From the NCBI GenBank assembly GCA_030247885.1, contig JAPDRO010000014.1:186001-250000 (forward strand): DNA of 64,000 nucleotides, read 5' to 3'. Shown in pieces: positions 3,591-62,695 of the stretch; positions within the stretch are counted from its first letter, which is position 1, and every line of letters begins with the position of its first letter. The notes beneath the pieces were generated by a model. That model made no database searches, was not told the DNA's origin, and worked only from the letters and a program-made list of their open reading frames with translations. The stretch comes from Taxawa tesnikishii (nom. ined.). Lineage: Eukaryota; Ascomycota; Dothideomycetes; Dothideales. The position numbers and the translations under genes are program-made.

Positions 3591-5753
3591 ATGACCGCCG
3601 CACTTTCCTCTGCCGCAAACTCCCTCTCCTCCCTCCTCCGCCAAACCTCCATCACCGACCATGAGGAAGTCCTAAACGCAGCTGATGCAGACTTAAAAAA
3701 TTCAAGGGCGACCTGGATGCACAGCACGTCAAAGTCGTCGCGCTGCTCAAGCTCGACCGGTTCGCGGATGCGCTTCAGGTGCTCGAGAGCGGCGGAGACA
3801 AGCTTAAAGAGCGGGCGCGATTAGAATGGGGATACGCACTATACAAAGCCGGACAACCTTTCCAGGCAGCCGAGGTCGCGAGGCAAGGAAGCGAAAGGGG
3901 AATGAGACATGTGGAGGCGCAGGCGGTACGTGGGAGACTTCCAAGCACGCGCGCAACACGATAGAGAGGCTGATATTGGGGATATTGCAGAGTTACAGAA
4001 GCGAAGATTTCAGGCGCGCGGCGGAACTGTATGCGGAGCTGGCGTCGAACAACGGTCAGGTCGAGAACGAATATGTGGATCTGAGGATTAATAGCAGTGC
4101 GGTGGATGCGCAGTTGGAGTGGAACGGACAGGAATCGCTGGTGCAGAAGCAGAAACCTAGTCGAGAGGACTTGGAGGCGTTTGAGACAGCGTATAATGCG
4201 GCTTGTGGTAGTATAGCGAGGGATGAACTGGGTCAGGCGGAGGTCCTACTAAGGAGGGCTAAAGGTGGGTTCTTCCGGGAAGACGAAGCGAGCTATGACT
4301 GATTGTTGAAGACCTCTGCAATGCTCTGGAAGACCTTTCGGAAGAGGACAAGGAGGCTGAGATTTTGCCTATCACTGTGCAGCAGCTCTACGTCTTGACT
4401 AAGCAAGGCAGGTTAGAAGAGGCTGATCAGCTTGCGTCGAGCACCAATGCAGAAGGGTAAGTAAAGTTGCATAGATATAGAGATACCTGCTAATGAGGAC
4501 AGTTTGTCGGACGCATCGACGAGGCATATTGCAGAAGTAAACATGGTGGCGGCGGCACCACCACAGGACGCGAACCCGTTCCTCACTCACCGCAAGATCC
4601 ACAGGTCTCCAGACACGATCACGCCAGACAAGCCATTTGGTTATCAATCAGCCGTTTTAGAGCGCAATAACTACGCGCTTGACTTGCTCGCCCAAAATCC
4701 AGTGGCACAGCCGACGCGACCGTCGCCATCATCTCGAAGTCTTCCTTACCAACCTTGGATGCAAGTATCAACTCGTTATCTGTCATCAACGCTGCAGCAC
4801 ACGCCCAAAATCGGTCCGGAAAAGAGGCCCTCAGAGTTGTTCTTTCCCTCCTTGAGAAGCGGCCGGACGATGTTGGACTCCTACTTGTGGTGACACAGCT
4901 CTACGTGTTGACCGGCAACCACGGTTCCGCCATCACCTTGCTGGAAGCTTTCTTCAGCCGCCTTGAGCAGTCGAGATCCACATCAGACCTTGATGTAAGG
5001 TACGCACCAGGTCTTGTAGGAACGCTTGTATCCCTCTACACAGCTCGCAGCCAAACCAGCCACGTGCGCACGGAGCTTGCAAAGACGTCAAGATATTGGA
5101 GGCATAGGTCAAAGGAACTCCAGTCGCCAGCAGGTCTGCCATCTCGCCGTGCTCTGGGACATTTTTATAAGAGCGCCGGCACTGTGTTGCTCGACTCCCC
5201 GGATCCTGAAGATCTGCAGTTGGCAAAGGACATATTCACAGATCTCACCAGCCTAGAGCCGGAGGACCGCTACGCTTCCGCCGGGCTTATCGCCGCTCTA
5301 GCATCCACAGCCCCATCCTCCATTCAAGACTCCCAACTCGCGCAGCTTACACCTGTCGAGCGTCTCGTTACCAGCATTGACGTTTCGGCCCTCGAAAACG
5401 CCGGCGTCGCCAAGCCCGCAACAACAGCCACGCCCGTCAACAACCTCAAACGCCACGTCGAATCTGCACCACCCATCAAAGCCAAGAAGATCCGTTCCGG
5501 CCGCTTACCGAAGGACTACGATCCATCCAAGACCGCGGATCCGGAACGCTGGCTTCCGATGCGCGATAGAAGTTACTATAGGCCGAAGGGCAAGAAGGGC
5601 AAGCAGAAGCAGGCTATGCTAATGCAGGGCGGTGTGGTGGCTGAGGAGAGGGATGCGAGTTCGAGTCGTCCCGGCACGCCGGCGGAGACGAAGGCGGGTG
5701 GTGGGGGCAAGCAGCAGCAGAAGAAGAAGAAGGGGAAGGGTGGGAAGTGGTAA
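3591..5753 (+). CDS. srp72: SRP72, signal recognition particle subunit
   Basis: SRP72 is the largest protein of the cytosolic signal recognition particle. It binds 7SL RNA with SRP68 and helps target ribosomes to the ER. Exons: 3591-3925, 3991-4264, 4312-4456, 4503-5753. Tetratricopeptide-like helices fill the body (HVKVVALLKLDRFADALQV, YALYKAGQPFQAAEVA). The C-terminus has the RNA-binding motif (LPKDYDPSKTADPERWLP, then YYRPKGKKGKQK) and a Lys/Gln-rich tail. The frame breaks twice, at the A run 3695-3700 and at AAAA 4694-4697. One more A at each restores a family-like protein, and the summed length becomes exactly 669 codons. I take these as sequence errors. The other reading would be two very short introns (about 38-41 nt) that remove conserved helix sequence. 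Confidence 0.9.
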
Positions 5754-6469
5754 ATGGATCTCGGTCGTGGTGAGAGAATAGAAGAGAAAGGTCAGGGCTT
5801 GACGTTGGCGGTCTGTGGCCATTTAGACGGTACACATCGAACAAAGATCCGCTCTGTAGATGTTTGCTCAAGTTTGTGTGTAATCACTAAGACACTTTTT
5901 AAAGAGTGTTAGTGACTACTAAGACTCATTTAAAACACTGTTCAGCCAGCAATCAGCTCCGTCGTGTATGCGTGAGGAAAGGTAGGACTAACTAACGGAA
6001 CGACGAGAGCCTCGTTATTAGATCTGATGGGATTTGACACGTCTATATGACTGAGTTCCTACCAGATTTGCCCATGGTAACATCGATGTCTGCCCCCGCT
6101 CCGCCCTTCCCTTATTTGTCTTCCCATCAACCACAATCTACAGATACAAACTTGTCTTGCCGATACCGAGCGCTATCTGTTCCTTGAAACCATCAAAGCC
6201 CCAATTGATCGATGTCTCGATACATGAATGCTGATGGAGGTTCCACGCATCTGTGGAATTCCATCCTGCGCTGTTAACCTTGTGTGCGGCAGTGTTCTTC
6301 ACATGCGAGTACTAGCTGTCCAATCTCACAATGTTTGACAAGCGCTTAGACTTGAACAACGTTTTGGAATGTGGGTATTGCTTTCTGTACGATGAAAACA
6401 TCTTTGGCCGGATTGGGAATGTGGCCGCGTCCGGTTAAAGAATCCTGTAACAAAGGTTGATTCAAGACC
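5754..6469. other. intergenic, 716 bp, with a near-palindrome
   Basis: Contains the srp72 3' end and, at 5884-5915, a 32-nt near-perfect inverted repeat centred on TTTTAAA. No gene was seen. Confidence 0.5.
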
Positions 6470-8289
6470 ATGATGTCGTCCACCTCGTCGACATCTGCGC
6501 GACAAACATCATCTTTCCTAGTGTTCTCCTACATCATCAACATGGCTGCTGCCAGGGTCCTGGGTGCCCTACCGGCGTACGGTCATCGGAACACGGCTGC
6601 GAATATTAGACAGGCTATTGAGGACTGGCTTTTGCGTAATCCTCTAGTCAGTGCAATTTGGGGACCGAACCATCAGAACTATCTGGGAAACAACTGGGTC
6701 GGTGCTTGGTAAGAACATCTCGCAAAACCGAGTGTGCAACAATTCGTAGTAACAGCTGTAAAGGTATCTCGGCCACGGGAGCTACGGGCTATGCGGGCTC
6801 TGGGTGCGCCTAGACGCAAATCAGAACGTGGTCGATGTAAGCACCAGATTTGACTGCGCAGTCCTATACTGACTTTCACTTAAGAGGATGGTAGTGAAGG
6901 CCTGCACGCCAGGTCACACTCGTTGGAACCTCCCGGACATGTGGCCTTTCGGGAATCCTCCAGCAGTCGGTGTTGGACCACCTCGAGAGGCTCATGTGCA
7001 TTTCAACATGCGTCATAACAACAACCACCCACGAAATTCTCATATTCTCAGGAACTTCGCTCACTGGGTTCACCCGCAGTTCGGAACTGTCTACAAGCTC
7101 TACCTCCAGTATGTATCTCACCAATCTCTCGACGAATTGATCAAGAAGCATATTCGGGGCATAACCAGTCCCGGTTTGACAAGAACGAGGCGGAGAAACA
7201 TTTTGCTTCCGGAACCATTTTGTTGGTACCTTTTTGAAAGTCTTGCCACCGCGGCGGTTCGGATGCTTGAAGCCTTCCAACGGTTACCGCTGGGTGTTCC
7301 CGCAATTCTGCTGGGTCCACAAGTCATTCATCAGTATGTAAGAAAGTGTTGCATATCCAGCTGTTCGCTAACCATAAGCACAGGGATATGAAATATACCA
7401 ACGGTATGTCCAAATCAGCCTCTACCTCCGTCCGTGATTACCAACGACTGCTTAGTGCTTCTGGACGCACCGGACAGTACTTACTGCCGCTGCTACCCAG
7501 TCCCTTACGTGAGTACAGACCAAGCTTGCCGGATGTCCACACAGTCGGCGAACGGTATTCTGATGATAGCTAACAGCTCTCGGACTTCGGTGGCGCCCGC
7601 GTAACAACATATTTCGACAACCAAAATCCGGGGCATCTCGTAGTCGACGAAAGCACCGATGGCTTCTGGCCACCCGAACATCCCAACGCTCCAGATAACC
7701 AGATCAACCTGGCCAGAGAACGCAACATCTTTGCGGCAAACATCTGGCAGATTGGCATGATCATGTTATCCGTCGTGAACCTAACCGACGAGATGAATGT
7801 AGAACAGCCGGATTTCGGAACCATTCCCGCATGGGCCCCTACATTCAGCCAAGCTGCACAAAGGAACTACAGCCTGGAACTACGAGAACTGATCGAATCA
7901 TGCCTCGTGTTGCAACCCTTCCAAAGACCCGACCCCGAGACCTGCTGAGGGATATTCAAGGTCCTGCTGCGCGAGTCCGTCGCTTTAGACAAACAGATAC
8001 TGCTGCTCCGAATGACAAGAGGCTCAAGTCTCTCAAACTCAAATACGCGCCCCGCGATAAGTACAGGGTGGGAAAGAACTTTAGTAGACCACCCCTCAAG
8101 TACTCAATGGCCGCAGCACTCAAGGACCAGCCCTTCCAAATCCGATACCGCCTCTGGACACAGAACTTATGCCGAGATGATTGGAGCATGGAACACATGG
8201 TGCGTTGTCGGGAGCCCACTTTGTATCTCTCACGTAGACTCCATGAGTCTGATACGCTGTCAATCAACAAGCATCCCACAATCTCGTAG
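6470..8289 (+). CDS. protein-kinase-like protein with HQD catalytic loop
   Basis: Eukaryotic protein kinase fold. Splicing out 6702-6755 gives a VAVKV strand (the usual ATP-lysine motif). The exon around 6885-7333 carries the N-lobe end and hinge region (LYLQYVSHQSLDELI). Joining 7333 to 7384-7403 gives the catalytic loop VIHQDMKYTN, where the usual HRD is HQD. Further exons 7456-7508 and 7577 onward give LSDFGGAR, the metal-binding DFG. The junction near 6840-6885 does not splice cleanly in any frame I tried. The frame also breaks at CCCC 7933-7936, after which the C-lobe continues (RDLLRDIQG) to a stop at 8287-8289. The exact start, one exon border and the end are uncertain. The key Asp residues are present, so it may be active; the substrate is unknown. 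Confidence 0.6.
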
Positions 8290-15683: not shown

Positions 15684-16229
15684 TCACTCACGCAGCTCCC
15701 GCAGAGCTCTCTGAACATCCATCTTCCTCTCAACAAGCATCTGTCTCATCTGAACGTCCCTGAGGTTTCTCTCATGTTCCTCAACAGCCATTTCCCGTAT
15801 CTCCTTCTTGTCCTCCACACTCAAATCCTGCCACCTCTCCATGATCTCACGCCTCATCTCATTGTATTGACGCTCCGCTTCGTAACTCTCCTCCAGCCCC
15901 TTCTGGATCTGCGGGCTAACATCCTCTTCCAAGAACTTTACGAACTCATCGATGGCCTCCTGCTTCTCAGCATCGTCTTTGGTGGAGTGACCGACATACT
16001 GACGACCCCTTTTGTGCGGATTATGTTGTTCGGCTGGCTGAGGCGTTCGAAGGTCTTGGCCCAGTTCTTGAAGGCGTCTTTGGGGAGACCGGGGGCTGGT
16101 TTATCGCGGAGGTCGCGGGCGATATCGCGCGCAGTCTCAGCAATCACAAACCCTGCAGTTCGTTAGGTGGGAAAAGGTTCTTGAAAAACGAGAGAAGGGG
16201 AACGTACTTGGCTTGCGTGTTTGAGACAT
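15684..16229 (-). CDS. small helical protein, unrecognised (about 163 aa)
   Basis: Exon 1 is 16208-16229 (MSQTRKP plus one base), then a GTACGT...CTGCAG intron, then 15684-16152. It starts RFVIAETARDIARDLRDKP. The C-terminal half is a long charged helix (EAERQYNEMRREIMERWQDL), probably a coiled coil, with no membrane segment or known motif. The frame breaks at the run 16006-16013 (CCCCTTTT on the plus strand). One extra base gives IRTKRGRQYVGHSTKDDAEK and a total length of exactly 164 codons. I do not recognise the family. The splice signals and uniform helical composition support a real gene. Function is not proposed. Confidence 0.65.
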
Positions 16230-17639: not shown

Positions 17640-19573
17640 TCAACGGTACCTTCCACCGCCTCCTCTTCTTCCTCCTCCTCCTCCTCCTCCTCCTCCTCCT
17701 CCTCCTCCTCCTCCGCCACCACCTCCACCGGGTGCACTCCTTCCAAAAGCTCTTCCACCACCATACTCCGGACCACCATCGACAATCACATCACCATCCT
17801 CGAACGTGTACCTCTTCAGTTGATCCAGGCCCCTGCCCAGACTCTCCCCGGATTCAGCCTGGCATCTTCACGCGGGTCCCATCCCCTGGCAGTCTGCCTG
17901 TCGAGTTCATCAAGTCGCTTATCCACCAATTCCTGCGGGACGGGCATGTAGTAGATCTTCGGTTTCGACGAAGTGAAACGGAACAGCTTGTCCAGTTCCA
18001 GCTCCTGAAGGCCTGGGTGGGGTGGAGATGAACGCCTCGGCGGTGGATTGCGAGACACGGGCTCGGAGTACTGTTCACTCGGCCTCCTATTACCCGCAGG
18101 GGGCAAACCTCCTAGCCCTCCTCGCGGGCCCGTCGGTGCGCCAGCAACTCCAGGCCCAGTGGAGCCGCGATGTCCACCGTTCACCGGTGCAGCACCCGCC
18201 TCGACGAGTTCGACATTGACGTTTCCGTCATCGCTGACCTCGTACGCTGCCTCCCAGCGCCGTGCCTGGCTTGGTCTTGCGCCGCCTCTGCTCATCTCCA
18301 CGTCGATCCATTCCTGAACTTTCTCTTCCGGGATGAAGTCGGCCCATAGCGGTTTCCTAGTCGGCTCGGGCGGCCAGACATGTCCGTGAATGCGGCCTCG
18401 TGCGCGCGAGGCCATGCTGATGGTCCCGAACAGCACGAAGGCGTGGGTTCGGAGGGCGTCAAGGTGGAACGTTTCGATTATGTCTTGTCGGCTAGAATCG
18501 GACATGTCGGGAGGTGTGGCATACGTGCGCAGTTGATCCTTCAATGCTGATGGATTTAGGGGTCGCACGAGGTCGCGAATGTAGAGCGCGCGAGTTGCAG
18601 GATGCATTGCAGGCGATACTGCGACGTGTTCGTCGCCGTCAGGATGAGCCGTTTCGGGTAGATCGGTTGTTTCTGCGTCTGTACCAGCACGATTATTTAG
18701 GAGATTTGCGTAGCGGCGTTCGTTGGGACTGCGTGTTTTCTGTGGTGAGGTTGGCAGTCGATCTGCTGCCGAGTTCGAAACTTCCATGAGATCGTCGCTG
18801 GTTGCCATTGGTAAAACCTTAACATCCGGTTTGTCCTCAGTATTGTCTTCCATCTCGACATCATCTAACGCTTCTGTATTGACCGGTACTGGAGCATCTG
18901 CCACTGCTTGATCGTTTGCCGTATGTACCACATTCCCATCTGAAGACTTCAGCTTCTTGCTGACCGACTCTTCGCGTACTGGTGGCGTGGGACTTCTTCT
19001 CTTCCTTTTTCTGCTCTCCTCTGCCATCTCCTCTACCGCAGGCGTGGCCGATGCAGAAGGGTCTATGGTGTTCACGGTGACGTTCTCAGGTACTTCCACG
19101 GTTGTTGTCGAGCTTCCCTCTGGGGCTGGTTGCGCGAAAGGCTCTACGACCTCCTTTCCACCCCGACTGAGGAGATCTTGCTCCATCTCTCTGGCCTCCG
19201 AATCTCCTCGTACACCAGCAATTTCTTCGCCATGACCTTCCGAGCCTGTCACTTCCGGTGCTGGTATCATTGAGGGCACATTGTCATTCTGGATCATGTT
19301 CTCCTCAGTAGCTTCTTCAGCTGTCTCAGTACGTGTAGTGTCCTGCAAATCGCTGTCGTCCCCGACATCTGGTTGGTCCGATCCAGCTTCGGTTTCAGTA
19401 TCCTGCTCCTCAGCTGGTGCTGCATCGCCACCATCTTCGTTGGCTCCGTTCTTCTGGTCATCCTCCTCCAGGGCGTTGATAATCTCCTGCTTGCGGGTAA
19501 GCTTAGTCGTGGGGATGCCGCGCTTTTTCAGCTGATCCTTGAGCTCAGTGACTTTGAGGGCGTTGTAGTCCAT
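17640..19573 (-). CDS. SAP-domain protein with Acinus RSB motif
   Basis: Resembles Acinus, the scaffold of the ASAP/PSAP RNA-processing complexes that bind RNPS1 through the RSB motif. Single exon, about 644 aa. An N-terminal SAP DNA/RNA-binding helix pair (VTELKDQLKKRGIPTTKL) is followed by about 300 disordered acidic residues. Next comes an RRM-like domain (LYIRDLVRPLNPSALKDQL, then HAFVLFGTISMASRARGRIH). The RSB-like end LDKLFRFTSSKPKIYYMPV is preceded by Pro-rich sequence. The frame breaks at the CC of 17825-17826. One more base gives AWDQLKRYTFEDGDVIVDGG, then a Gly/Arg-rich tail to the stop at 17640, and exactly 645 codons. The Gly run is encoded by a TCC microsatellite (plus strand). 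Nuclear location is inferred from the family. Confidence 0.82.
17661..17714. repeat. (TCC)n trinucleotide repeat coding for poly-Gly
   Basis: Nearly pure TCC on the plus strand; read from the minus strand it is GGA, giving the glycine run in the tail of the Acinus-like protein. Confidence 0.95.
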
Positions 19574-21802: not shown

Positions 21803-22724
21803 TTACAGCGCACCCAATTCCTTCAATTTCGAAATCATCCCGTCCACGTCCTCGACCTTCCCACCACCTTGTCTCGGCGGTGGTTCCATAACCTTGACCG
21901 TCTTCAACCTCCTCCCCGTATCGATGCCATAATCCTCCATGCTCTTCTTAACCAACGGCTTCTTCTTCGCCTTCATGATGTTCGGCAGACTAGCATACCG
22001 AGGCTCGTTCAACCGCAGATCCGTCGTAATAACCATGGGCAACTGAGCACGCAGCGTCTCAACACCCCCATCCACTTCCCTGATCACCGTGCAGGTCTCG
22101 CCCTCGATATCGACCTTTGAGGCCTGTGTCGCCTGCGGCCAGTTCAGCAGTCCGGCGAGCATTTGCCCCGTTTGGTTCGCGTCGTCGTCGATGCTCTGTT
22201 TCCCCAATATCACGAGGTTGCTCTTCTCCTCCTCCACGACCTTTGCGAGCAGCTTCGCGACGTGCAGGGGTTCGAGGTCGCCCTTCTCGTCGCCCTTGGG
22301 GTCCTTGCCCGGTTCGACGACCACGTGGATGCCTCGGTCCGCGCCCATGGCCATGGCGGTGCGGAGGATATCTTGCGATTTGGCGGGTCCAGCGCTGAAA
22401 GCGAGGATTTCCGAGACGGGGACTTTGCGCTCGCGGAGGCGGACGGCCTCCTCGATCGAGAGCTCATCGAAGGGGTTGAGGGAGTGCTTCACGCCGGTTG
22501 TCTCGACGGCCGTTTGCGCTTTGTTGACGCGTGGTTTGACCTGTAGGAGCACGTCAGTAACACGCCAGCTATAGTTCGGGAAGAAACGTTTGCGAAGCGC
22601 TGTTGCAGTCATGTCGGTCTCACAGTACTTGGAGAGGAAGAGTGGAGGCAACAGGAAGAGGACGTACGGCATAGTCAATGACTCGCTTGACAGGGACAAG
22701 GATTCGGAGACCCTTGGATGCCAT
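21803..22724 (-). CDS. etfB: electron transfer flavoprotein, beta subunit
   Basis: The ETF alpha/beta heterodimer carries electrons from acyl-CoA dehydrogenases to the ubiquinone pool in the mitochondrial matrix. Exons 22668-22724 and 21803-22540 give 264 aa, the usual size. The start reads MASKGLRILVPVKRVIDYA and continues across a 127-nt intron to VKPRVNKAQTAVETTGVKHS. Family motifs include NPFDELSIEEAVRLRE, VILGKQSIDDDANQTGQML (the beta-subunit signature around the AMP site) and LPMVITTDLRLNEPRYASLPNI. No cleavable presequence is seen, as is common for ETF beta. The frame is clean. Confidence 0.95.
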
Positions 22725-23303
22725 TGTTCCAAATCGTAATCTGCGGCCACCGACGGAGGGAGAAAGAGAAGGGCGGCAAAAGAGCAAAGGTGGGAGAGAC
22801 GGTGATGGTGATGGTGAGCAAAGTGAAGCTGTGGCTTGCGGCTTGTGGTTGTCTCTCGCCGAGAACGTGGAGAACATAGCCGCGGCCCGATGCATCAAGA
22901 CCGGTACCAGAGAACATGAGTTACCAGCATTTAAGCACGGCTCTCGAGAATCCGAATGACATCGTCACCTTTAACGGCGTACCACACTTTCCCTATACTG
23001 CAAGCGCTCCAGCGGCTTGACGTTGGATAGCACACTGCGACCAAATTTGCCGTGCTTTTGGGAATCACGATTGTTCCTTGCTGCCTTTTCCACCCCAGTA
23101 TATGACAAGCGCACCATAACCATACCGCGTGCTTTCGCTTCGTTTTGAATTAAAGAACTTTTGACTTTCAATTTGGGTCAAAGCACAGCAAAACCTCATC
23201 CGGTTAGCTCTCTCGGACGAATCCTCACTGATATTCTTCTTCCAGCAATTTGGTTCTCGCCCACCCTAGACTAGCAGATTATCCACTCCCTCCGCTCATC
23301 GAA
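22725..23303. other. intergenic, 579 bp
   Basis: Promoter side of ETF beta and 3' flank of the RdRP gene. No gene was seen. Confidence 0.5.
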
Positions 23304-26300
23304 TTATGAACCCTGCAACTCCATGAGTCGGTCGAAAGCCGACTTCTTCGGCTTTCCAACGACAATCTCCCTCGTAGGTTCCTCCTCCCTCTCCTCCTCT
23401 GGATCAGCCGAAATAGATCCTATGACCATGTTATCAGTATCATCCGTCTTATCAAACTGGCTTCTCAAAGACAAAGCATCAAGTGAAGTGCAGGATAAAT
23501 TGTCAGTGAAACAAAGGGTAGTGTCGGTGTTAGTGAAGTATAGGTGAGGGACAAGCCTAGTGTCAACGACGTCCAGATTAGACACGTTACCTTGACCACC
23601 ATTTGCATTCACCAACTCGTTCTCCGAAGCAACGGTCCACGGGGATGGTGGACAGGAGGATGAGGAGGAAGAAGAAGAAGAGGAGGAGGAGGAGGAGGAG
23701 GAGGAGGAGGAGGAGGAGGAGGAGGAGGAAGGCGAGGTGGCATTCTGTGCTTCTCCGCCAACATCCCCAACAAGGTTGTGGGTCGCTCTAGCGACAGCAG
23801 GCACATGAACGATTCCTTCGGCGACCCCAGACGCCTCGATGAGCAATGTTTCAAGATTCTGTGAGTTTGAGAATGGTTGGTCAGGTTTCTCGTCACTCTT
23901 TTGATCGAGCAGATCAAGGAGATCGTCGTTACCCGCAGGAAATTCCTTCAGGCCATCCTGCTTAATTTTCGACGCATCGTCCCAGTCGGCTAGAAGATCG
24001 ACAGGGGCGAAGTCTTCGTTGAACTGACTGTTGAGAACATCCACAACATCCTTGCTAGAACTGTGCCATGTCTTGTCGGCCTCAATTCTATTTCTGGTAG
24101 ACTGTTGAGCGGACGGGCTGTTTAGAACCCTCGACACTGGGTTGCTGCTGTATTGGAGTTTTGCAAGGTCCATCTCTGGCAGCGAGATCACCTCAGGGAT
24201 ATCCAGCGACAGGAGATCATGTACTGGCGCACGCTTCGGAAGCTGCATTGCTGTGTTGGTAAGTTGCTTGGCAGCAATAACTGTCTGCCCGCGGGTGGCA
24301 ATCTGTCCCAGCTCGGTAGCGAAGATCCAAGGAAAACTAATGAGCGGCATCACAGGCCCGTCTTCGGAAACGGCGTTGTCGAACGCGACCATATTCTTGT
24401 GCTCCTCGACGGCAGCGGCGGTGACAGTGTACATCGCAACGACGAACGGGCCTAGCTTGTCGAGGCTCTTGTCAGACTTCGTCAGGCCTGCCTTCTCCAG
24501 ACAGAGCTCGCGATAGTTCTCCTTCAGCATACTCATCAAGCGGCCCATCTCTTCCGCGAAAGAGTAATCTTTGATGTCCCTGTTGTGGTCCATGACAAAG
24601 GCGGACCAGACTTCGAACTCCGTTCTGATGCCGTGCTGTGCCATGATGCGGCGAACATCGTTGTCGTACTGTTCCTTCAATTCTGTAGCGGCATCGATCA
24701 CGTCTTTGCTAACTTCGTCAGGATAGGCGTCCAGGATGCGGCGGTCAAAAGCCTGGCCGTAACGAGGATCGAATTCAACACGCTGGACTGCGTCGTACAG
24801 CTTGCCAAGTATCTTCTCCGAATGGTAAGTTCTCTGCGCAGAGATGCCCTTCTTCTCCATCCAGTGCGGCCAACGATTTGGTCTCAGGTCATTGTCAAGA
24901 ACGGCAGGTACTCCTGTCTTGGCGTAATCGACGGCTTGTGAGTGCAGCTGCGCGAGGCGTGTACCTGCAATAGTCAATATACTCAGCCAATCGGTACTAT
25001 AGAACCAAACTTACAGTTGTCGCTCTTCACACCATCCCAACTGGAATCCGCAAAAGCCCGGTGGTTGACCGCAATTTGCGGAAGGTTGTCGTTTCGCATA
25101 TACGTGACAAAGAACTTCGTCATATCATCCACAGTGACAGGACCATCTGCGCGAACAGGGTCCGGTGCGGTGTAATCCATTGGCTCTTGGTTCTGTTCGG
25201 TCGGCAACAAGTCCTCGTCCCAGATCACGAGGTAATCGTCTCCGTCGAGGTCGCCGCCTGAGCACATGTTGGCCAGATCCCGCTCTCCTTTCTGTGGAAG
25301 GACCACCACGTTTTTAAGGTGGCGAAGAGCCGGGCATGTTACTGCATGTACGACTCGCACATCACCCGGGTGAAGTGACGGGTTTCTCGCCAGCACGCAA
25401 ACGCCCTCGACGACTTTGTAGGCGCCTTGCTTGTCCGGGTCGGGGATTTGCAAGAATATTTCTGGGAGTTCTCCGGGATTCATGTTGAGGGTGGCTGTCT
25501 CATCAACGCAGCCCAGCAGAAAAGCACCTTTGTCAATGAGAATCTTTGCTTTTTCTTTAAGATACTTGACGCTCCATGCTCTCCACAGTTGCAGAATGGA
25601 TATGCAGAAAGGGTCTTGCACTTCCATGAACCCGTTGAGGACCATTTCTGCAAGAGCGAGCGTTACGTGATTCATATCCACATTCTTTTGAAGCATCTCT
25701 AAGGCCGTCTTCTGGTCAACCATAGCTCGCTCAATATTCTCCAGCATACTGCGGAGCTTTGTGAGAAACGGCCCGTCGCCAACGCCCAGAGCGGACAGGA
25801 CAAGGATTATCTGCTGGTTCAGGTAGGAAGAGGCAAAAGCAGATGTACGAATGATCTCCAGACCTTTGGTCGTTGCGTTGAATTTCTCCTGGCTCGGCCT
25901 GATGGCCACAGTCATGCCTGGCAGCGTCGGATCCACAGCAAGGACGCCTTTGCAGCCTCCCATACGGAACTGGAAGAGCGAAGGGTAATCGTCCGAGCTT
26001 ATGCCAAACTCTCCTCCGATCATCTGGGCAAGGAACGGTGAGATCTTGCCAACCCCATCTGTGAAGCAGTACCCGTTGCGCGAGACGTCGTCGATTTTCT
26101 GGACGTTGAGATTCGCTCCGACTGACGTGATGGCTCTGGTAGTCGAGAAGCATTGACCAATCCTAGACAGATATTTTGCAACGACATCAATGTGGTCAAA
26201 CTTGCCCATCCGTGCACGCATGTCTGACGCTGTGAGTGTTGAGGTTGGGGCAAAGAACCAGGCGCCATTCTCACGGAACTGGGAGTTTCCAAATGCCAGA

Positions 26301-40772: not shown

Positions 40773-43700
40773 TCACCTTCTGCTACTCGCCATCTCTCCG
40801 TATCTGCCTCTCTCCCTCGTGGTATCGTACGCCTGCAGCACCCTCGCCTGCGACTCGTCCGTCTGCGAGAAGGCGTAGCCGCGCTGCTTGCGCATCCGCT
40901 GCACTTGCCTAACCTTCCTAATAGCTTTCTGGAATTGCTCCATCCTACGGTGTTCCCAATCAGCAAATACTCCCTACAAAAGCGTCGAGCCACGACGATC
41001 ATGACGGTGAATACGTACCGCGGCCGGTAGTCCTGGATGTTGTATTTCTGGATCTCCTGCACGTGGTGGTAGTGTTGCGGGTAGTACATGCGCTTGGCGT
41101 ATTTCCACGAGAAATCCCGAAGCAGACAGAGCGCCGGCAGCACGATCATCATGAGCCAGAACACGGGACTGGTGAACAGCCGGGGATGACGCCGTGGTAC
41201 TCGGTACTAAAGTTCAGCTTGGGCGCAACGGTTGCGTAGATGGGAATAAAGATGAACCAGATGGCCAGACTGCCCGGGATGGCGATGACGGTATACTTTG
41301 TCCAGATGTTAGTGATGAGCGCAGCCTTGCCGAGCACGGTGACGAGACCGGCCGTGTAAAGCGCTGTGCCCCAGACCCAGTGGCCCGCTACCTTGCCATC
41401 GCCTTGTGGCAGGTCCCACAACCAGATGAGTTGGGAGACGAAGTACAAGATCAGTGAGTGGTAGAAACCGTTGGCCACCCAGCTGACGAAAGAGTGCATC
41501 CTGAAGAAAACACCCTTCTGACTGAGCTGGTAAAGTTGCGGGTACCGATCCAACAGACGTGCGGACACGTACTGGTCAAAGATACCCAGGACGAACGGAG
41601 GCAGAGCGGTGAACAGCACGTTGTAGAAACTCAACGTCCAGGACTCGAAAATGACCTCGCCCGAGAACGAGTTCTGGAACGAGTACCAGAACTGCGTCAT
41701 GAAGAGCGCAGTGTTCTTGTAGTAGAAGTAGAGAATGACCTTTGAGATGCGTTGATATGACCAGGAACCGTGCACCAGGAGAAGTTTGCGTAGAAACCGG
41801 AATTGCGCAATCGCAACATCGGCAGACCGGGCGGCCTGGAGACCTTCGACACCAGATATACCGATGCCGATGTGAGCGGCTTGGATCATGGACACGTCGT
41901 TAGCACCATCGCCGATGGCGAGAAGGATTGCCTTGAGGTGGCGCTTGACAAGCTTGACGACCAAAGCTTTCTGCAGAGGCGACACACGGCTGGATAGCTT
42001 TTGTCAGCAGAAGTCGCGGATTCGAACAATGTTCGCAACTCACCAGCAAATGACTGCCTTGCACATGACTGCCAGATCAAGGAAGAGCTTTTCCATATCC
42101 TTTTCAAGTGCATACGTCAGTGACTTACCGTCGATAACCAACGCCAGCGCTTCCATGGCTATGCCGCCCGCAGCCTGGCCCTGGATAGCATTGAGCTTCT
42201 TGGTCAAGTTGTCCCGTGTTGCCTGTGCATTTTCCTCGTTCACGATGAGCAGCGTCATGTCTTCACTAATCAACTTGCAACTCATGCCGATGTTGATTGC
42301 GGTTTCTTGTCGGTCACCGGTCAAGACCCAGATCTTGATTCCAGCCGTCTGCAAGGTGTGGATCGTATCCGGTACACCGTCTTGAAGCTTGTCCTCGATA
42401 GCAGTGGCGCCGAGCAAAGTGAAGTCGTGTTCGATCAGCTCTGCAGCTTTGTCGAGCTCTTCTGCACGATTGCCGCCGACGGTCGTCTGGGCCTCGTTGA
42501 ACACGCGGTACCATTCCTCAAACTCATGGTCAGGAACCTCGCGCATGGCCAAGCAAAGCGTACGAAGACCCTCTGCGGCATATTCTTCGAGATGCTGTAG
42601 AGTAGCTTCGACATAGGGGTTGTTGCCACCCAGACGCTCGAGAATGACAGTGTCTGCACCCTTGCAATAACACCTGATCTTGCCGTCTGGGCAACGGAAG
42701 ATGGTCGACATACGTTTCCTTGTGGAGTTGAACTCACAAACCGCCAGAAGCTCGTACTCGAACTCTTGCCCGCCTGTCATAATCATGACCGAACGTGGCT
42801 TACGAGCCACAAACTTGTACCCCAAGGTAACTGCACCCTCAACAAGTGCGCCCTCGTCGGGTGAGGCGGCCTGGTATTTGATCTGACCGGGCTTTTCGGT
42901 GTTTGTCTCGGGGATAACGGTGTGACAGGTCGAGAGCAGTGCCAGAAAATGATGAATGTTTTCGGCAGTAGGATGGTTCCTCCTGTTCTTCTCCAGTTGC
43001 GCAAAATCGTAGATGCCGATTTCGCTGCCATCAACCTCCGTGGCTCTGCGGTCTTCCGGCACCTCATCCGCATACTGGACTCCTCCGATCGAGCATTGCC
43101 TGAATTCCATCTGGTTGCAGGTAAGCGTGCCGGTCTTGTCCGAGCAGATGTACTCGACCTGGCCCAGTTCCTCCACCAGAGATGACGTTCTGCAGTTTGA
43201 TGGTGTGTCCGTTTTGTCGTAATAGATGTCCAAATCCGAGCTGATGAGATAGGCTTGATAGTACTTGATAATCTCCACGGTGACGAAAAGCGAGATGGGA
43301 ACCAGGTTGGAGTATAGAACCCAGTAAGTGAAAAGATCGCTGAAGAATTGCTTGGCGCCGTTCAACGAAGTGTAATCAAGGTACCACAGCTTGTCCGATA
43401 TCGTGAGGCGCACAACCAGATCTCCAATGGAGCTTATGATGCTGAGCGCGATGAGAATACCACCCAGCATGAGAATCTGTACGTTTACCATGTGCTCGAC
43501 AGCTGTCTTCTTGATAGGGGTAGCTGTAGCGTTTCGCATAAGCTTCGTTTCGTGACCAGTAAAGACGACCACTCCATGAATCCAGGGGTGTTTCGCAGCG
43601 TGGCACCTCTCAACAAAAGCTGTTCAGGATTCAGAGATAGCTCCTTCTCCCCTCCGCCGGCTTGCATGGTCAGAGTAGCCTCATACGTGTAGAGGCTGCT

Positions 43701-49680: not shown

Positions 49681-51882
49681 TCACAATTTCGACGTCCTAC
49701 ACCCATCAGGCAGCGCACCACTCATCATGAATTCATCTCCCTTGTCCGTCGCTGCCTGTTCGTCACCGAATACCAACTCCTCCCTTCCTCCCTTTGTCGT
49801 CCACCACGCCACGCAAGTCTGGCTGCGTTCGGAATCCATCTCTCCACTCGTCATGATATGCCAGAAATGCTGCCTGCAGTGTTCTCGCATGCTCAGATCC
49901 GCTATTCTATTCACCAAAGTCGCCGAAAGAGGGAGCCACTCGTCCAACAACTCGTAGGCTATTGTCGGTAGGGAATCCAAGAGTGTCAAGACCAGGACAG
50001 CTTGCTCGGATAATACAGGTATGACCTGCTCAGTGGGTTCGCTATCCAGCATTGCTTGAGCGGTTGGGTTCGTGGGAAGAGGAGTCGTAGGTGCCTGCAG
50101 GGCGCGATCGTAGATAAGCTCAAGCAAGGTTGGAGCAAGCAGAGGCTGTGCTGTCGCAATTGTTGACGGAGGCGAGGTGATTCGGAGGAGATTCTTGAAT
50201 GCTAAGCGGAATTGGCGTGAGGAGAGATTTTCGGGAAAGGCCCGGAACAGGGCGCCGACGTAAAAAGGCAGGTGTTTCGAGGTAATTTCGACGTTTTGCG
50301 GCGCTGAAAACACCGCCAGCATGACGCTGTGGGCTGCTTCGAAGATGGAAATAAGATAGGGGTTGCCGCCAGCGGCGAGGTAGGGCACAGAGGCAGCGAT
50401 CAGAAGGTTTTCGCTCACAGCGGGGAGAGTACCAGGGTGTAATGCTCAGCTGTGTTGAGGAAGAAGAGATCAAGGCACCGGTCCAGCGGATTGCTTGGGA
50501 TGTGGCCCATCTCTGTTGGAGCAGCAGACCTGACAAAAGACTCGGCTTCGGGGGTAGTTGCAGAGTATGTCAATGGCTGCTAAGTACGTGAACGTGTACT
50601 GTGAGAAAGAAGAGGACCCGAGTCGGGCTGAGATAAAGTACAGGCTGCGGAGCGAGCGAAGAGTCTCCTGCGCCAGGTGGGGAGCATCTGTATGCTGATC
50701 AGTATGATTTTTGAGCGTATAGCGGCGTAGACGTACTGTCGTCGGCTGCAAGGACGGCATCTCCTATTTGTCGCCCAACAACACTACGTAAGACAATGAC
50801 AAGCCCATATAGAGTTGAACGAAGAAGCTTCCAGAGGGTTGGCACTGTAGTCTTTCGGGTCTCTTCGTCCAGGAAAACTGGTTCCTCTGAGACATCTATT
50901 TCTGACAGCTTGTTTTGCCGCCACTGAACCAAAAGTGTTTGCGAAAATTCTGCAATGTCCTCTGTGACCGAGAGTACAAGCCACGAGTCCCGTACGTTTT
51001 CCACAGTATGCGCGATCAGTCGCGACAGTGGGCCGAGCGCTGATATTAGAGGGCCAGTTAGAATCCTCTGAACTTGCCCATACGATGAAGAAGACTCGTC
51101 CCACTTGAACTGCTTTTCTGAAATCTGCCGAACGTCTGCATCAGCAACACCAACGAAATAGGCTGACCCGAGTCCTTCGGTTGAATGGAGAGTGCAGTGC
51201 ATCAGGATGGGGAGGAGCCTATCATAATCGATCCGCGCCCTCTCTTGATCGGCTAGATGCGGGAATGCGTGATTCAGAATGAGTGCGATGTTGGCCTGCG
51301 AAAGCTCGTCGGTATCTCTTGCTTCAGCAAGGGCAAGGTTCGCCGCTGTAACAAAAGCCCCCTCTAAGGTGGGTTGTAGAGATGTGGACAAATGCTCTTC
51401 CTCCTGGCTGCCGAAGCCGATGAGTAACCCGCCCAAAACGAGCAAGTGGCGGGACCTCGATGATCGCTCGTCGGCGCCCTTGATGACAGAAAGAACCCAT
51501 TCTTCTAGAGGCATAGTTGGTTCAAACTGCGGGTGTGTAGATACTCTATGCGTGTTCTCTGCGTACGATGCGCGCTCACGCTCTGCTGTTCGGATAGTTG
51601 CAGAATTGAAGACACCTAGGAAGCTCAGGGATGTCCGGAGCCCGTCCGGTTGAAGCCAAATTGCGGGCGCAGCAAGAAGCTGGCTGGTCAGTAGAGTAAC
51701 ATTGAGTGGATTGTTCAACGTTGTCAGCAAAGACACCGCTGTTCCTAGTAATCTGTGGCATGGTCAATCTTTGAGCCGTAATGGTTTGGCGTGATAGACC
51801 AGACGTACCGAGGGGTGTCTTGCTGTTGCGCAGGCGTCTGGAGAGCCCTCAACAGCGTCGCCAGTAGCCTGTCCGCCGGCAT
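49681..51882 (-). CDS. pex8: peroxin Pex8, intraperoxisomal import factor
   Basis: Pex8 lies on the inner face of the peroxisomal membrane and links the docking and RING complexes of matrix import. Exons 51809-51882, 50737-51752 and 49681-50687. The N-terminus is family-like (MPADRLLATLLRALQT, SLLTTLNNPLNVTLLTSQLL). The body is helical throughout. The protein ends in CRTSKL, a perfect PTS1 (SKL) signal as in other Pex8 proteins. The frame breaks at GGGG 50422-50425 (one base short) and at GGGGG 50550-50554 (one base too many, or two short); with these the length is 699 codons. Family assignment rests on N-terminal wording, size and PTS1, so it is good but not absolute. Confidence 0.82.
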
Positions 51883-55053: not shown

Positions 55054-58000
55054 TCACTCCATATCATCCTTAGAATCATCAAAAATGATATCCCGAACGG
55101 GCGGATCCTGCACTTCAGCCTCCCCACCCAGCCTGATCATGTCCACACCTTGCGGTCCATGATCCTGCGCGTCGGCGTAGTCGTCCAACGTTGCATCATC
55201 CGCCTGGTGGAACAGACTTAATTCGGGGTCCTCGTCGCCAGTAAGAGGTGTGTTCTGCCCTCCAGCGCCGAGCGAGAATCTGTCGTCATCGTCGAAATCC
55301 TCCATCAACCGGCCAGCAAGATCATCTGGGCCCTCAGCCGCCGCGACCGACGAGGGCGCCCCGTTGAGTGTCGAGGCATCATCAGGAACATTGATATTTT
55401 CGAAGCTCCAGCCCTGGTCCTGACCTGCATCGAAAAGGCGGTGGCCCTTGAACGTGTTGTCGTTGTCACCATCGTCCAGACTGATGCCCTCGTCATCACT
55501 CGTCAGGCTCTGCTTCGCTAGTCGGCTCACTGCGTCGCCAGCTGGGCCAGCGCCGCCGCGAAGACTGGGATTGCCGGCTCCTGCTCCTGCTCCGGTTCCA
55601 GCGTTCGACGACCCAAGCGGGCGAGAGAAACCGGAGCGCTGTCCTTCCCCGACTCGGACTCTTCTTCCGCGTCGGAGGAGGTGGAATCGTTGGAGTCCTC
55701 GTCAGGACCTTTACGGGCATTGTTGACGAGTTCGCGGAGGTATGGAGGGCCGAGTGGCTGCAAGGAACGGCGGCGATAGAAGAGCAGGTAGGCCGCATTC
55801 GTAACGACTGTGGCGGGATTGTTTATTGAGGACACGAAACTGTCTAACTGAGCGTCAGCGAGCGTGCATACGGCTAATGGGTTTTAGTGAATGCTTGCCG
55901 TTGAAGTCATACCACTTTCCGTCAAAGAAATTCTTGGCCATGGCAGTGTAGTGACCGCCTCCTAGTCCACCGTAATGGTTGTCCACGGCGAAGAGATCGT
56001 AGATACACTCCTTTCCTTCCTCCTGGAAGCCCACCTTGTTGCTGAGATCCAGACCCTCAAGAGGGAAGTCAACAAGCACATCAACTTTATCACGCCTGTG
56101 CCGCTCTCCACTGAAGCGCTTGAGATGGACAACAAGGATGTCGGGCGCGGTCCAAATCTCCAGGGTCTTGCTGGCACGGCGTTCCTCCTTGCACCTTGGA
56201 CAGCGCCACGCATTGTCTTCAGACAGAATCTCCGTCTTGCCGGTCTCGGCGAAGCACTCTTCTAGCGTGACACCATTCTTCTTACGTTGGGCGCGCTTCT
56301 GCTTCTTGGCCTGAAGTTCCTGGTCCTCTGCAGTGTCGAGGTTGCTGAGCAGGAAATAACCCTGGTCGTCGCTAGGCTTGTCTGCATCGCCACCAAACAT
56401 GGTGTCGAAGGCATCGTCCCGCCAGTCCAGCACGATACCCTCTCCAAGCTTGATGTAGTACGGGTCTGAGTCGGTTTCCGATTCGGGAGTTGCCTTCGTC
56501 GATCCGCGGGACAAGTTCGAACGTACAGACTGTTTGCTGCCACGGCGGACCTTCGGGGAGTATGTCATCTGCTTTCTGTTGCGATTCCTATTGAACTTCT
56601 GCCTGGCATTGCTCTTCCTGGAGATGAGGTTCTCCACGGATGGAAGCTCGTCATCACTTTGCAGGTCGCCACTGGGAGTTGCGCTCTCCTCCCCAAGGAT
56701 GACATCGGGCGTGTCGGCGTCTTCATCGCTTGAACCACTCCGACTGCGTCCGCTGTAGCCCGAGTCTTGGCTCCTCTGCGAGATGTTCGATCGTACGGAA
56801 GCCACAGAACCTCTACGAGCAGGCAGCTGGACCCTGTCCAGCATTGGTTTGATCTGACTGAGATTACCAGTGCAGTGCATATCGTCACCCTTGGTGTACT
56901 TCATCTCGAACATATTGCGAAAGACTGGCGAAATCAATGTTCCAGGTTGAGAGATGTCGGGCACGTGTGTCTTGACGGTCTGCGCAGGTTCCTGACCGCT
57001 CTTGTTGACAGAGATATCGACATATCCATCGTCGGAATCCACAGATCTATCGCTGACTTTGGCTTCTGCATTGTCAGTAGCGGCGTCGTCACCGACCGCT
57101 GTTTCAGCTTCCGAAGAACGTTGAGCCCGAGGCAGGGGCGTCATAGCCTTGTCCCAGTCGACTTCCAGGAATTTGAATGACGTGACTCTGGACACTGCCA
57201 GCAAGACCTTTCGAAAAATGGCGTCGGCATCCTTGGCTTCTTCCCTGGAGATCACAATCCAAGATGGAATGAGATCGAACTTTGAGCTATTGTACAGTCC
57301 TGCGCCGTTGCTCGCACGACGATGCAGCACAGGTACCACCATACGCTCTGCTTGCGGCGAATCCATGTCTGGCAGCGGGTCTTCGTTCCTGTAAAGGATC
57401 GAGCGATAGCCTTTCTTCTTCATTTCGTAGTTGACGTTTGTTGGCACTTCCGGCAGCTCGTACATGTATAGATGATCGGCCGGTTGGAAGCTCTGCTCTG
57501 CAATGCTCTCCTTATCTGGAAACACCTTGTAGATCTTCTGGCTGAACTCTTCCATGAACAACATTCGATTGTTTTCAAGACCGGGGACTCTGCTCGCGAT
57601 GAACTCCTTGATGGCTTTCACCGGAGCGTTCTTGTCCATGTCGACCTCATATTGAGTTGGTGGGCTATTCAGAGGAACAAAGATGATCTTGTGTTGCCAG
57701 GTGTTCTCAATGGGGAGCTGAAGGGTGAGGAGAGAGTAAGGATCGAAGGTGACGCTGACCTTGTCGCACACAGGGCACTCTAAGGTGTTCTTGTAGAAGC
57801 CATTGAACAGGTCAACCGCGATAGAGTCATTCCTGGCTCTGTAATTCTCCCTGTATTTCTGGCCAAGCGCCTTGATAGCCTCCGGGTCGTGGACAGTCGC
57901 ATCATCGGAATCAGGGTTCTCAAGATAAGGCTTCTTGTGGATCCGATTGAGATCCTCGTGGAGCGCATCGACTAAGAAACTCAAGAACTCTTGTGAGTCC

Positions 58001-59938
58001 TGCTGTCCGTAACCAGAGAACTGAGGTTGATTCATGCCGAGGGTGCCCTTGAAGCTACCCGGTCTGAAAGCACTGGCGCTGGCCTCATTGTACAGACCTT
58101 CTATGACTCCAGCGTAGGCCTTAGCCATCTTTCCGTTATAGCCAATCGGATTGTCTGTGTTGATCTCGGTCTTGTATTTGCCCTGCAGGAAAAGATGGCC
58201 AGCTCCTCGACTCGACTAATGCACTGCAGAGCTGAGTTCATGTAGCATGTATTGCCGAGGTTGGTCAATCCGATTGCACCGCGAGTCCTGCCGTCCTTTC
58301 TAGTGCGGCCTCTGGTGACGGGGCCCGAGGGTGCCGGGCTAGCTCGGCCGTTCGCTTCGTCAAACTTGGTCTTTCCAGCGTTGCCCTTCTTCGCGTTACG
58401 CTGGTTATCAGAGCCGGGCGCTAGTTCCTCCAGGACTATGGTTTGGCTGACCCCGAGCCCCAAGATCTCCAGAGTAGATTTGCCGTTGTACTTCTCGTTC
58501 GTGGTATGGTCCTGAAGATCAACCATCTCGTAATCAGTTCCAACCACCCATTTAGCAAATTCAGACGGCTCGATGACGAGCTTCGGCTCGTCCTCGTTGG
58601 GCGCCGATTCTGGCGACCCGCTTCTCGAAGCGTCTGGAGTTAGCATCCCCGCTTGTTGTGAGCTGTTGTCCACAGCGATAGACGACGGATCCATCTGTCG
58701 CCAGATCTTAACCTTGCGACCGATCTCGATACCAGCAGCTTTCTTTGCGCGAGCGAGCCACTTCATTGAGCTTTCATGACTGGTGGCGAGAATCTTGACG
58801 GCAGTTGGCTCAGAAGTGTCTCTTTCCGGCGTTGGGGGCCAGTAGCTGTCTGACTAGTGCTTGCGGATGTCCCAGGGGGCGTCGGGGGTTTTGTGCCTTG
58901 AGTCGACTTATGGAGAACCTTCCGGATGGTGAAAACAGGAGGATAGCTCTCGTACATCAGATTCTGCACGACAGCGCCGGGCGCTGTGTCGACAACGAAG
59001 CGAATAATTGGCTTCTGATTTTCAGCGACGCCATACCACTCCATGATCAGGTTCCAGGCCTTTTCCGGAACAGTCAAGTACTCTTGCTCGAACGTCAAAC
59101 CAGGATTTAGCGGCACGAATGGTATGTCGGTGCCCTCGTATGATAGCGTAGAAGCGAAAGCGCCTTGCGGAACAATATCTGAGTTGTCCACCGGGCCAAC
59201 ATCACCCTCCAAGGCTTCTTTTCCGTGATCGCCACCGTTTCGTCCTTCAGTGGCTCTAGCGATGACTCTTCCCAACCATCTCATAGAAACTACAAAGCCT
59301 TTTTCGCCCTCCTCCACTGGTGCCTGCATTAGCTGGAAAACTCGCTCATATTGTTCGTCGTATGACGGCGGAGCAAGCCGATCGGCATCATGAGCGCTGT
59401 ATGGTGGAGGTGCATCATCAATTTGAGATTTGTTTGAAGCTGAGGCCCTTGGCATAACAGTATCCTGTGCGTTCGGAACCGTAGTGTTGCCATTAGCCTC
59501 CTCTTGCTTTGTGCCTTCAGCTCCATCCATGGTATCGGCAGACCTCTTTGCAGGCGACACTGAGCGTGGCTCTAGTCGTCTAGCCTCCGCTGAACCCTCT
59601 GTTCTTCCAAAACCGTCCTTGTTGCTGACCTCTGCCGGGTTGTGGCCTACAGCATCGCCATCTTGGCCTCCGGACATACTACTACCGTACACGCTGGAAC
59701 CCAAGTTCAACGCAGCGTAGGCTTCACTGTTTCCGCTAGGCGAATCTGCCTTGTACGCTCCTCCTCTTAGACCTTCCGAAGTTTCCAGTTGGAGGTGTGG
59801 TGGTAGGAAATGCACAGGCGAGCTTCGTGGGCCTGACAGCGGAGTGGTGGACTGACTTTCGGACAAGGGCGGGCGCCGTGGTGAAGAAGAAGGCGGTGAC
59901 GGCTGTCTATCGGGGTCGTACACTTCCGGCGCAAACAA
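55054..59938 (-). CDS. ubp12: ubiquitin-specific protease Ubp12 (USP4/15 type)
   Basis: Deubiquitinase with a DUSP domain and a split USP domain. Exons 55899-59938 and 55054-55843; 1611 codons after three frame corrections. The N-terminal disordered region is followed by DUSP (MRWLGRVIARATEG, WNLIMEWYGVAENQKPIIRF), then the Cys box GLTNLGNTCYMNSALQC (Cys at about residue 565), QFSGYGQQDSQEFLSFLVDA, a long insert, CPRCKEERRASKTLEIW, and the His box GGLGGGHYTAMAKNFF then WYDFNDSFVSS. The acidic tail ends DDSKDDME. The frame breaks at GGGGG 58834-58838, AAAA 58190-58193 and CC 55631-55632 (plus strand). Intron 55844-55898 begins GCAAGC and ends GTTAG: a GC-AG intron. The start may lie further upstream, since the frame stays open to about 60080. 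Confidence 0.9.
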
Positions 59939-60814
59939 TGGTGGGCCGTTGCCGTTGAGCGAGTCTTCTTGAGGGAGCGGAGCGATCTTTCGCTTCTTTG
60001 AGGAAGCCGTCCTGAAGGCTAGCTGCCCACTCTGCGTGGCAGCCTGGCAGCAGGGCGGACGGAGGAAGGAGCGCGAGCTCTGGAAAGCCGGTCGTCCTTT
60101 TCGATAGATTGTTACGCTCCTGGTGGTACAGAGCAGCGCAGTGGGAGTAGATGAGGGATTGTTAAACCGGGGTAGCCGGGCGGTGGAGAAGAAGTTTTGG
60201 GTGACGTGTGGAACAAACGCAAACGGCGCGTCTAAATCTGGTATTTCGATTGTCGCAAAGTAACTATAGACAGAACAGGTACAGGATGCGTAACGTTACA
60301 CAGGTTGACTGCGCGTTCGAAAATGCTATGCAGTCTGTGTTTGCGACAAGAAAAGATATTGCGAAAGGAAGGAGTGGTGCAGGTACCAGAAATTTACGCT
60401 GATATACTCAATCTACAAATTACTGTCGCGTGAATGGCCTCAGCTATCTCTGTTGTCACCACCAACGTCTTCTCTAAAGTAACGTACGCAGTGCCAAGGA
60501 CAGGAACAGTCAATCAGTCAGTTTGATGCCGCAAGTGAAGCCAAGGTGAATATGCATCCGATGCTTGATAGATAGCGATCGGCGCAGGGTGAAGCAGATC
60601 TGCAGCTTGCAGGCTTCTGGTTGTATTCTTCGATTTCGTTTGCTGCTTCAGCGATACAATCACACAGCCCACGCCTAGCGCCCTGCCGAGTAATGGTACA
60701 GCCCGCAGTTGCCTCACTCCACTTCGCCATGGAACGCCATGCGTGTCGAGTCCACTGAGATATCGCTTTCACCTCTCGTGCAGCCCGGTGTGAATAGCGT
60801 ATCCACCCACCAAT
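59939..60814. other. intergenic, 876 bp
   Basis: Promoter side of ubp12 (the first 140 bp may still be coding) and 3' flank of the next gene. Nothing else was seen. Confidence 0.45.
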
Positions 60815-62695
60815 TCACGATCTTGAGCCTCCCGAGTTCAACCACGAAAACGCAGACGCGCCACCGATTGGGTTGGACCTTCCCTTTGTTGTCGAACCCA
60901 CTCCTAAACCTACGGGTGTCTGACTTTTGGAGTCCACAGAAGGAATTGGTGCCCCTTTCTGCTCTCCATGAATATCGTCTGTCGCTCTCCTCTTTCCATC
61001 GTCGAAGAAGCGCGACCTTCCGTCAGCAGGCGAGGGTGAAGCACTGAGCGTGCTCGACAACGTCCTGGTTGTCGACCTTGCAGGCTTGAGTACTTTGATT
61101 CCTGTGTCTTTCCTCTGATACGAGCCATCTTTGTTCTTCGCACTGGCCAGGTCGACCTGGTTGTTCTGAGCTGAGCTGTCTCGCCGCCAACTACTCCATA
61201 TTGCTGGCGAGGATCCAGCGCGCGAAGGTGTAGCCTGCGAAGGGCTAGCTTCTGCGGAATTCTCCCTGACCTCGACACGAGTGTTGACCAAACCAGGGGG
61301 CGGCCGAAGTGAGTTTGCTTGGCGGCTCTCTGGTCTACTCGTAGTCTGTTCCGTGTCCGAGGTGCCTGCACCACTGCTCTCATTCTCAGCTGCGACGACC
61401 CCAGGAGGCCTGTACTTGCCAGCTGGTGGACTAGGCGCCGATGAAGGTATAGGGTCCCCCGCCGATAGGCTCTGGCCAAGTCCGTTGATGTGCGATTGCT
61501 GTTTCGATGGCGTATCTTCCGGTCTTTCTGACGAAGCTGGCATGGTTTCCGAGCCACCCGTCGTGACCAGACAGTTAAACACGGCCTCGTTCTCAGGCCT
61601 CACGAGTGGGATCGATAGTTTACTCCGATCATCGTCGTAAAGAGTCATACTGTTGGATGAGAAAAGGATGTCCGCATTGTGGGCACGCAAGGTGTCACTC
61701 CCGATAAAGATTTGGATAGCTTTCGATTCGCTTTGCTGGGGATCTCGCTCGATTACGGTGAAGACGACCGTAAGTGTAGGCAGTTGCGGAGCAGGACTAC
61801 TCGACCTGGATGATGCAGGGTGTGGTACAGCCTCAGGGAAATACACCGGCAGTTCCACAGTCCTTCCACCAAGGACGTCACCAACGATGCGGTCCTCGAA
61901 TCCGAGTTTCTGTATAAGTGGAAGACCCAAAAATGACTTGAATGATGCTGTGCAGACAGCGGCGTATAGAAGAGCATCGTGCTTGAAGTTGGTGTTCATC
62001 CAACAACGGATGATGGCAGGGACGGTACCAAGGACAAGTAGACCGGGAGCTATGGCTGGCGTATGCAATGGCGATCTGTTGGCTTCTCCTAAACCGTACC
62101 CAGTGTCGAGATTCAAGCTGCTAGCACGACCTGACGCAGCCGATCGCACCGAATGCACTGAACTGGCTCGTCCGTCCGACTTGTGTGATGAAGACCGCTC
62201 CGTCATAGGGAAACCACCGAGGCCGCTGCTGCTCCTAGGTATGAAATCCACCGACGACCGAGAAGCATGAGCCCAATGGCCCTGGTTGGCGGACTCATCG
62301 AATCGGACGCTGTTCGCACGAGAGGTCGCGCCTATCCGCCTCGGCTCCTCTTCAGCATCAAGGTGGAGGCTGCCGATAAGATTGCTCGAATCATCGTCGA
62401 AGTTTTTGAATTGATCCTGTAGGGGTTTTGCAGGGGCGCTAAAATCGGACATGAGTTCAAGTGCAGCGTACAGAATCAGAAATACCCTACCCTGTTGTGG
62501 TGTTCCACTCAGAACACTGGGAAATGGTGATGCGCCGCCCCATACGGACTTCATCCTGGCGTCGTCTTCTTGGCGTCGCTCGAGCCGAAGCAGTCTGTCT
62601 GAGTGGTCCGACTGCACCTGTTGTAGGCGCAAGAGCTCGTTGTGTAAGCGCCAGGAGTCGCTTTGAGGTACGAAGGCAACACTTTGCGGGTCCAT
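60815..62695 (-). CDS. conserved fungal protein, no recognised catalytic domain
   Basis: Exons 62491-62695 and 60815-62438; 609 aa after one correction at GGGG 62433-62436. It begins MDPQSVAFVPQSDSWRLHNE, with a short coiled coil. It continues with a Ser-rich region (SRANSVRFDESANQGHWAHA) and a globular core (VPAIIRCWMNTNFKHDALLY, VELPVYFPEAVPHPASSRSS, IGSDTLRAHNADILFSSNSM). A Ser/Pro-rich disordered tail follows. I recall close relatives being labelled 'ubiquitin carboxyl-terminal hydrolase 19' in fungal genomes, but no Cys or His box is visible, so that name looks wrong. The start was placed at MDPQ, because upstream Met residues precede non-conserved sequence. Function is unknown. Confidence 0.78.
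   Translation of the reverse strand: MDPQSVAFVPQSDSWRLHNELLRLQQVQSDHSDRLLRLERRQEDDARMKSVWGGASPFPSVLSGTPQQGRVFLILYAALELMSDFSAPAKPLQDQFKNFDDDSSNLIGSLHLDAEEEPRRIGATSRANSVRFDESANQGHWAHASRSSVDFIPRSSSGLGGFPMTERSSSHKSDGRASSVHSVRSAASGRASSLNLDTGYGLGEANRSPLHTPAIAPGLLVLGTVPAIIRCWMNTNFKHDALLYAAVCTASFKSFLGLPLIQKLGFEDRIVGDVLGGRTVELPVYFPEAVPHPASSRSSSPAPQLPTLTVVFTVIERDPQQSESKAIQIFIGSDTLRAHNADILFSSNSMTLYDDDRSKLSIPLVRPENEAVFNCLVTTGGSETMPASSERPEDTPSKQQSHINGLGQSLSAGDPIPSSAPSPPAGKYRPPGVVAAENESSGAGTSDTEQTTSRPESRQANSLRPPPGLVNTRVEVRENSAEASPSQATPSRAGSSPAIWSSWRRDSSAQNNQVDLASAKNKDGSYQRKDTGIKVLKPARSTTRTLSSTLSASPSPADGRSRFFDDGKRRATDDIHGEQKGAPIPSVDSKSQTPVGLGVGSTTKGRSNPIGGASAFSWLNSGGSRS

Follow-up and report, generated by a model that had tools for sequence, protein, structure and literature searches.

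Single-base frame breaks in a 64,000-nt window of the Taxawa tesnikishii genome are, with a probability that we put at about 96%, consensus errors of a nanopore-based assembly. The window, i.e., the whole stretch of DNA analyzed, comprises bases 186001 to 250000 of contig C6 (844,923 bases) in the strain JES_119 assembly of 29,367,862 bases and 34 contigs, from a species placed in the Dothideales by the NCBI taxonomy. A sequence-only reading had listed 21 breaks in this window and attributed them to miscalled homopolymers. All 21 sites were examined, and 18 are supported, three of them (7933, 17825, and 55631) by coding score alone; the break at 62433 is not needed, and the sites at 33620 and 34069 have weak coding scores. 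The observation was largely right and its interpretation right, and the evidence supports an assembly artifact of a known kind. Nanopore consensus would usually give runs of identical bases one base short, and a run shortened in this manner within an exon would make the reading frame slip, with the gene itself intact in the cell. The result is an ordinary one, and its value is that of a data-quality warning.

Four of the breaks are spanned by two proteins from another assembly of the same species (source tag 'lgn', 100% identical to the searched pieces): P0002, a Ubp12 protein of 1,320 aa (longest contig, 60,598), and P0242, a CBM48 protein of 457 aa (longest contig, 3,217). P0002 is identical to the window over residues 2 to 1320, the first residue alone being different, and P0242 is identical over residues 1 to 457. 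Both proteins fall into exact blocks (residues 2 to 327, 327 to 542, and 543 to 1320 of P0002; residues 1 to 98, 98 to 366, and 366 to 457 of P0242) that lie in three successive frames of the window. The switches between blocks, at 58835 to 58838, 58191, 37763 to 37766, and 36960 to 36963, overlap printed runs of 5, 4, 4, and 3 bases, respectively, so that all four exactly placed switches are in homopolymer runs. Specifically, the ubp12-like deubiquitinase gene (minus strand) is broken at a run of five (58834 to 58838) and at a run of four (58190 to 58193; coding-model call at 58193), and P0003, a relative at 69% identity, shifts frame at both positions. The CBM48 (AMPK1_CBM) gene, also on the minus strand, is broken at a run of four (37764 to 37767; model call at 37767) and at 36960 to 36963. 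The latter break had been listed at 36992 to 36993; it is real, and its position was about 30 nt off, as the frame switch of P0242 over the run of three indicates. A third break in this gene, at a run of four (38068 to 38071, minus strand), lies beyond P0242; the model calls a slip at 38069, and the public annotation skips the next 59 nt. Comparison with a second assembly, which had been proposed as a check, thus finds all four covered breaks absent from the same species, with the remaining 17 sites outside the two proteins. The attribution to homopolymer miscalling holds at these sites, where P0002 and P0242 run uninterrupted and each switch sits on a one-base run. The CBM48 gene (36688 to 38807) has a relative on another contig (1,232,081): P0274, a second Taxawa protein, of 837 aa, named 'Cruciform DNA binding protein'.

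Coding frames were also surveyed with a three-periodic coding model that was blind to the site list. Its training set was 75 long open frames, drawn from the window and from 18 other loci, which are 10-kb stretches elsewhere in the genome with 81.7 kb of coding sequence. The model permits introns and frame slips, and a missing and an extra base cost the same. It called 15 slips in the window, 13 of which fall 0 to 94 nt from a listed site; those at 3695, 4698, 15999, 30187, 38069, 50438, and 50566 are 0 to 94 nt from seven sites without protein support. Eight of the 21 listed sites were missed (7933, 17825, 26865, 27262, 33620, 34069, 55631, and 62433). The two unlisted calls, at 2091 and 22755, appear false when the frames are read, resembling introns or a leader; that at 22755 sits in the leader of an electron transfer flavoprotein gene (21803 to 22700), which, from the motif at its start, appears to encode the beta subunit. 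The 18 other loci yielded 25 slips, i.e., 0.31 per kb of coding sequence, and the window 0.41 per kb. The missing-base type accounted for 14 of the 15 window calls and 24 of the 25 in the other loci (38 of 40 in total); one direction dominates, and the errors are genome-wide. The claim that, with one exception, the listed breaks act like a missing base is borne out by the window calls, among which the one near 50550 in the 'pex8' gene differs.

Control runs on synthetic genes did not reproduce this one-sidedness. In 120 synthetic genes free of breaks, the model produced 11 false calls (6 missing, 5 extra); with one break planted per gene, it recovered 98 of 120, assigned the correct type in 96, had a median positional error of 4 nt, and produced 11 further false calls (7 missing, 4 extra). 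Pooled, the false calls comprise 13 missing and 9 extra bases. Slips in the window exceed chance, at 0.41 versus about 0.06 false calls per kb, the latter a lower bound because the synthetic genes were made from training frames. Calls also gather at homopolymers: 13 of the 40 are no more than 3 nt from a run of at least four bases, compared with 7.4% of coding positions, and 21 within 15 nt, compared with 22.6%. That 27 calls are more than 3 nt from any such run is partly due to the model misplacing breaks. It also fused ubp12 with the next gene (55054 to 59677), although P0002 ends at 55858.

Support at the other sites varies from gene to gene. The SRP72 gene (plus strand) is interrupted at a run of six (3695 to 3700; model call at 3695) and a run of four (4694 to 4697; model call at 4698), with the SRP72 domain in frame after the second break; a search of solved structures with this gene returned a weak match (E 0.045), on which the placement is not based. 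On the minus strand, the best frame changes at 16006 to 16013 in a short coiled-coil-like gene (model call at 15999) and at a run of five (30281 to 30285) in a coiled-coil-like gene, where the model call at 30187 is 94 nt off. The 'pex8' gene (minus strand) has a missing base at 50422 to 50425 (model call at 50438) and the sole extra-base site at 50550 to 50554, where the model call at 50566 is also of the extra-base type. The name pex8 is that of the sequence-only reading, and a Pfam search with the pieces of this gene matched no family, save for one chance-level match. Three breaks are loosely placed by a change of the best coding frame: at the end of a kinase-like gene (7933 to 7936, plus strand; weak kinase match upstream, E 0.026), near the end of an Acinus-like gene with SAP and RSB motifs (17825 to 17826, minus strand), and in the gene downstream of ubp12 (55631 to 55632, minus strand). 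The atg29 gene (plus strand), with two candidate breaks, carries ATG29_N in its first exon; at 33620 to 33622 the exons are too short for a score, and at 34069 to 34076 the coding score is weak and the model chose an intron. At 62433 to 62436 (minus strand), one frame stays open and scores best on either side of the site, and no break is needed. An Rfam search gave no match at gathering scores. The supported sites beyond the four spanned by proteins probably share the consensus-error cause.

Homologues from other species were aligned to two further genes on the minus strand. Yeast Drs2 switches frame at both breaks of the Drs2-type flippase gene: around 43585 to 43588 (switch at 43581 to 43587), one frame ends at residue 412 and the next begins at 411, and around 41182 to 41185 (switch at 41184 to 41176), one frame ends at residue 1197 and the next begins at 1200. 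Support for both breaks in the RNA-dependent RNA polymerase (RdRP) gene is weaker. There was no same-species RdRP protein among the best 120 matches listed (top identity, 65%), ten of which were aligned. The break at 27262 to 27265 is flanked on both sides in one of these ten homologues (P0154; switch at 27263 to 27272), and two more enter the second frame there (P0131 from 27263 and P0133 from 27269). The second, listed at 26865 to 26869, is bracketed most tightly by P0131, from 26884 to 26827. Contrary cases are P0149, whose first-frame alignment continues to 27209, and P0135, whose gapped alignment covers both sites in a single frame. Identities around the breaks are low (26 to 42%), and the coding model called neither of them, placing a 78-nt intron instead. 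The RdRP frame (23304 to 25010) also contains a stretch of about 30 serines close to the C terminus, which derives from a simple repeat.

Homopolymer content and the sequencing record of the strain point to the same cause. In 244 kb, we counted 47 runs of six or more bases versus 140 expected from dinucleotide frequencies, the sole yardstick for this comparison; such runs are thus three-fold rarer than expected. The deficit is about eight-fold for C/G runs (9 versus 70), and A/T runs number 38 versus 70. Strain JES_119 of T. tesnikishii is a black fungus from a desert soil crust (PMC11195213). That paper, a preprint, gives an assembly total of 29,383,553 in 38 scaffolds, slightly above the genome analyzed here, and the largest scaffold is reported as 2,828,030 (PMC11195213), the length of contig C1. 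According to its Table 2 and methods, the assembly rests on nanopore reads, with a coverage of 194.58x (guppy 3.4.4) for nanopore and 25.38x for Illumina (PMC11195213). BUSCO completeness is given there as 97.4% under 'Illumina' versus 92.9% under 'Nanopore' (PMC11195213). The species, the nanopore coverage, and the lower nanopore BUSCO value as reported there fit homopolymer miscalling as well. The same paper states that the assembly is a hybrid with Illumina reads, yet the BUSCO value of the Illumina assembly exceeds that of the nanopore-labeled one (PMC11195213). The Illumina reads apparently did not correct the deposited consensus effectively.

Similar errors are described in PMC7500977 for a nanopore-only assembly of Drechmeria coniospora, in which, as here, single-base homopolymer errors broke frames and misled gene models; they were fixed using short reads. 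After long-read polishing, however, runs in that assembly were more often too long, whereas nearly all calls here are missing bases, and the JES_119 assembly is described as hybrid (PMC11195213). The polisher Homopolish is presented in PMC8011154 as targeting systematic nanopore errors via homologous sequences. The excess of overlong runs in the polished D. coniospora assembly (PMC7500977) counts against nanopore error as the explanation, as do the stated hybrid assembly (PMC11195213), the one extra-base site at 50550 to 50554, and the 27 of 40 calls more than 3 nt from runs.

The printed sequence does interrupt genes, as it would if JES_119 carried real frameshift mutations in decaying pseudogenes. 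Such breaks would be in the DNA of the organism itself, but same-species proteins are intact at all four of the breaks that they cover, without other amino-acid change. Added to this, 38 of 40 calls go in one direction and the model also finds slips in 20 of the 57 gene models outside the window, which makes pseudogenes highly improbable, in agreement with the earlier judgment that pseudogenization of so many essential genes is not credible. A mixed situation, in which this strain has inherited real mutations at a few sites outside the same-species proteins (e.g., the RdRP pair or the extra-base site near 50550), hidden among assembly errors, is also improbable. The switches fall in homopolymers, which are potentially slippery, and the DNA could be correct as printed if programmed ribosomal frameshifting or RNA editing restored the frame. 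Breaks of that kind would be present in genomic DNA; P0002, however, is intact at both ubp12 breaks on a 60.6-kb contig, beyond the size of a messenger RNA. To our knowledge, ascomycete fungi have no frameshifting or RNA-editing system that affects a large proportion of their genes, and we regard this explanation as exceedingly improbable.

That some listed breaks are instead overlooked short introns or wrong exon choices is unlikely, although individual sites speak for it: 62433 requires no break, the model calls at 2091 and 22755 have the look of introns or a leader, and the model favored an intron at 34069 and in the RdRP gene. This interpretation is impossible at the four sites crossed by same-species proteins and in the Drs2-type gene, where at most two residues stay unaligned between frames.

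Consensus errors of this kind have reached the public annotation, where the sequence-only reading had expected damaged gene calls. The public T. tesnikishii model of the CBM48 gene, H2203_006302 (P0243), was not counted as independent evidence, since its contig has the length of C6. At the three breaks of the gene (36898 to 38067) it omits 59, 65, and 47 nt, and the omitted stretches read GT...AG after a shift by one or two bases. Two of these stretches are present in P0242, which reads across their breaks, as is the third from 38056 onward; because P0242 contains segments that H2203_006302 skips, this one gene has three false introns in the public model. The coding model calls at least one break in 20 of the 57 gene models at the 18 sampled loci and in 9 of the 19 in the window, counts that include some false calls. 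With breaks that frequent, gene losses, protein lengths, intron counts, and domain counts derived from this assembly should be rechecked. Illumina reads of JES_119 (BioProject PRJNA631111) exist according to PMC11195213, which makes the remedy routine.
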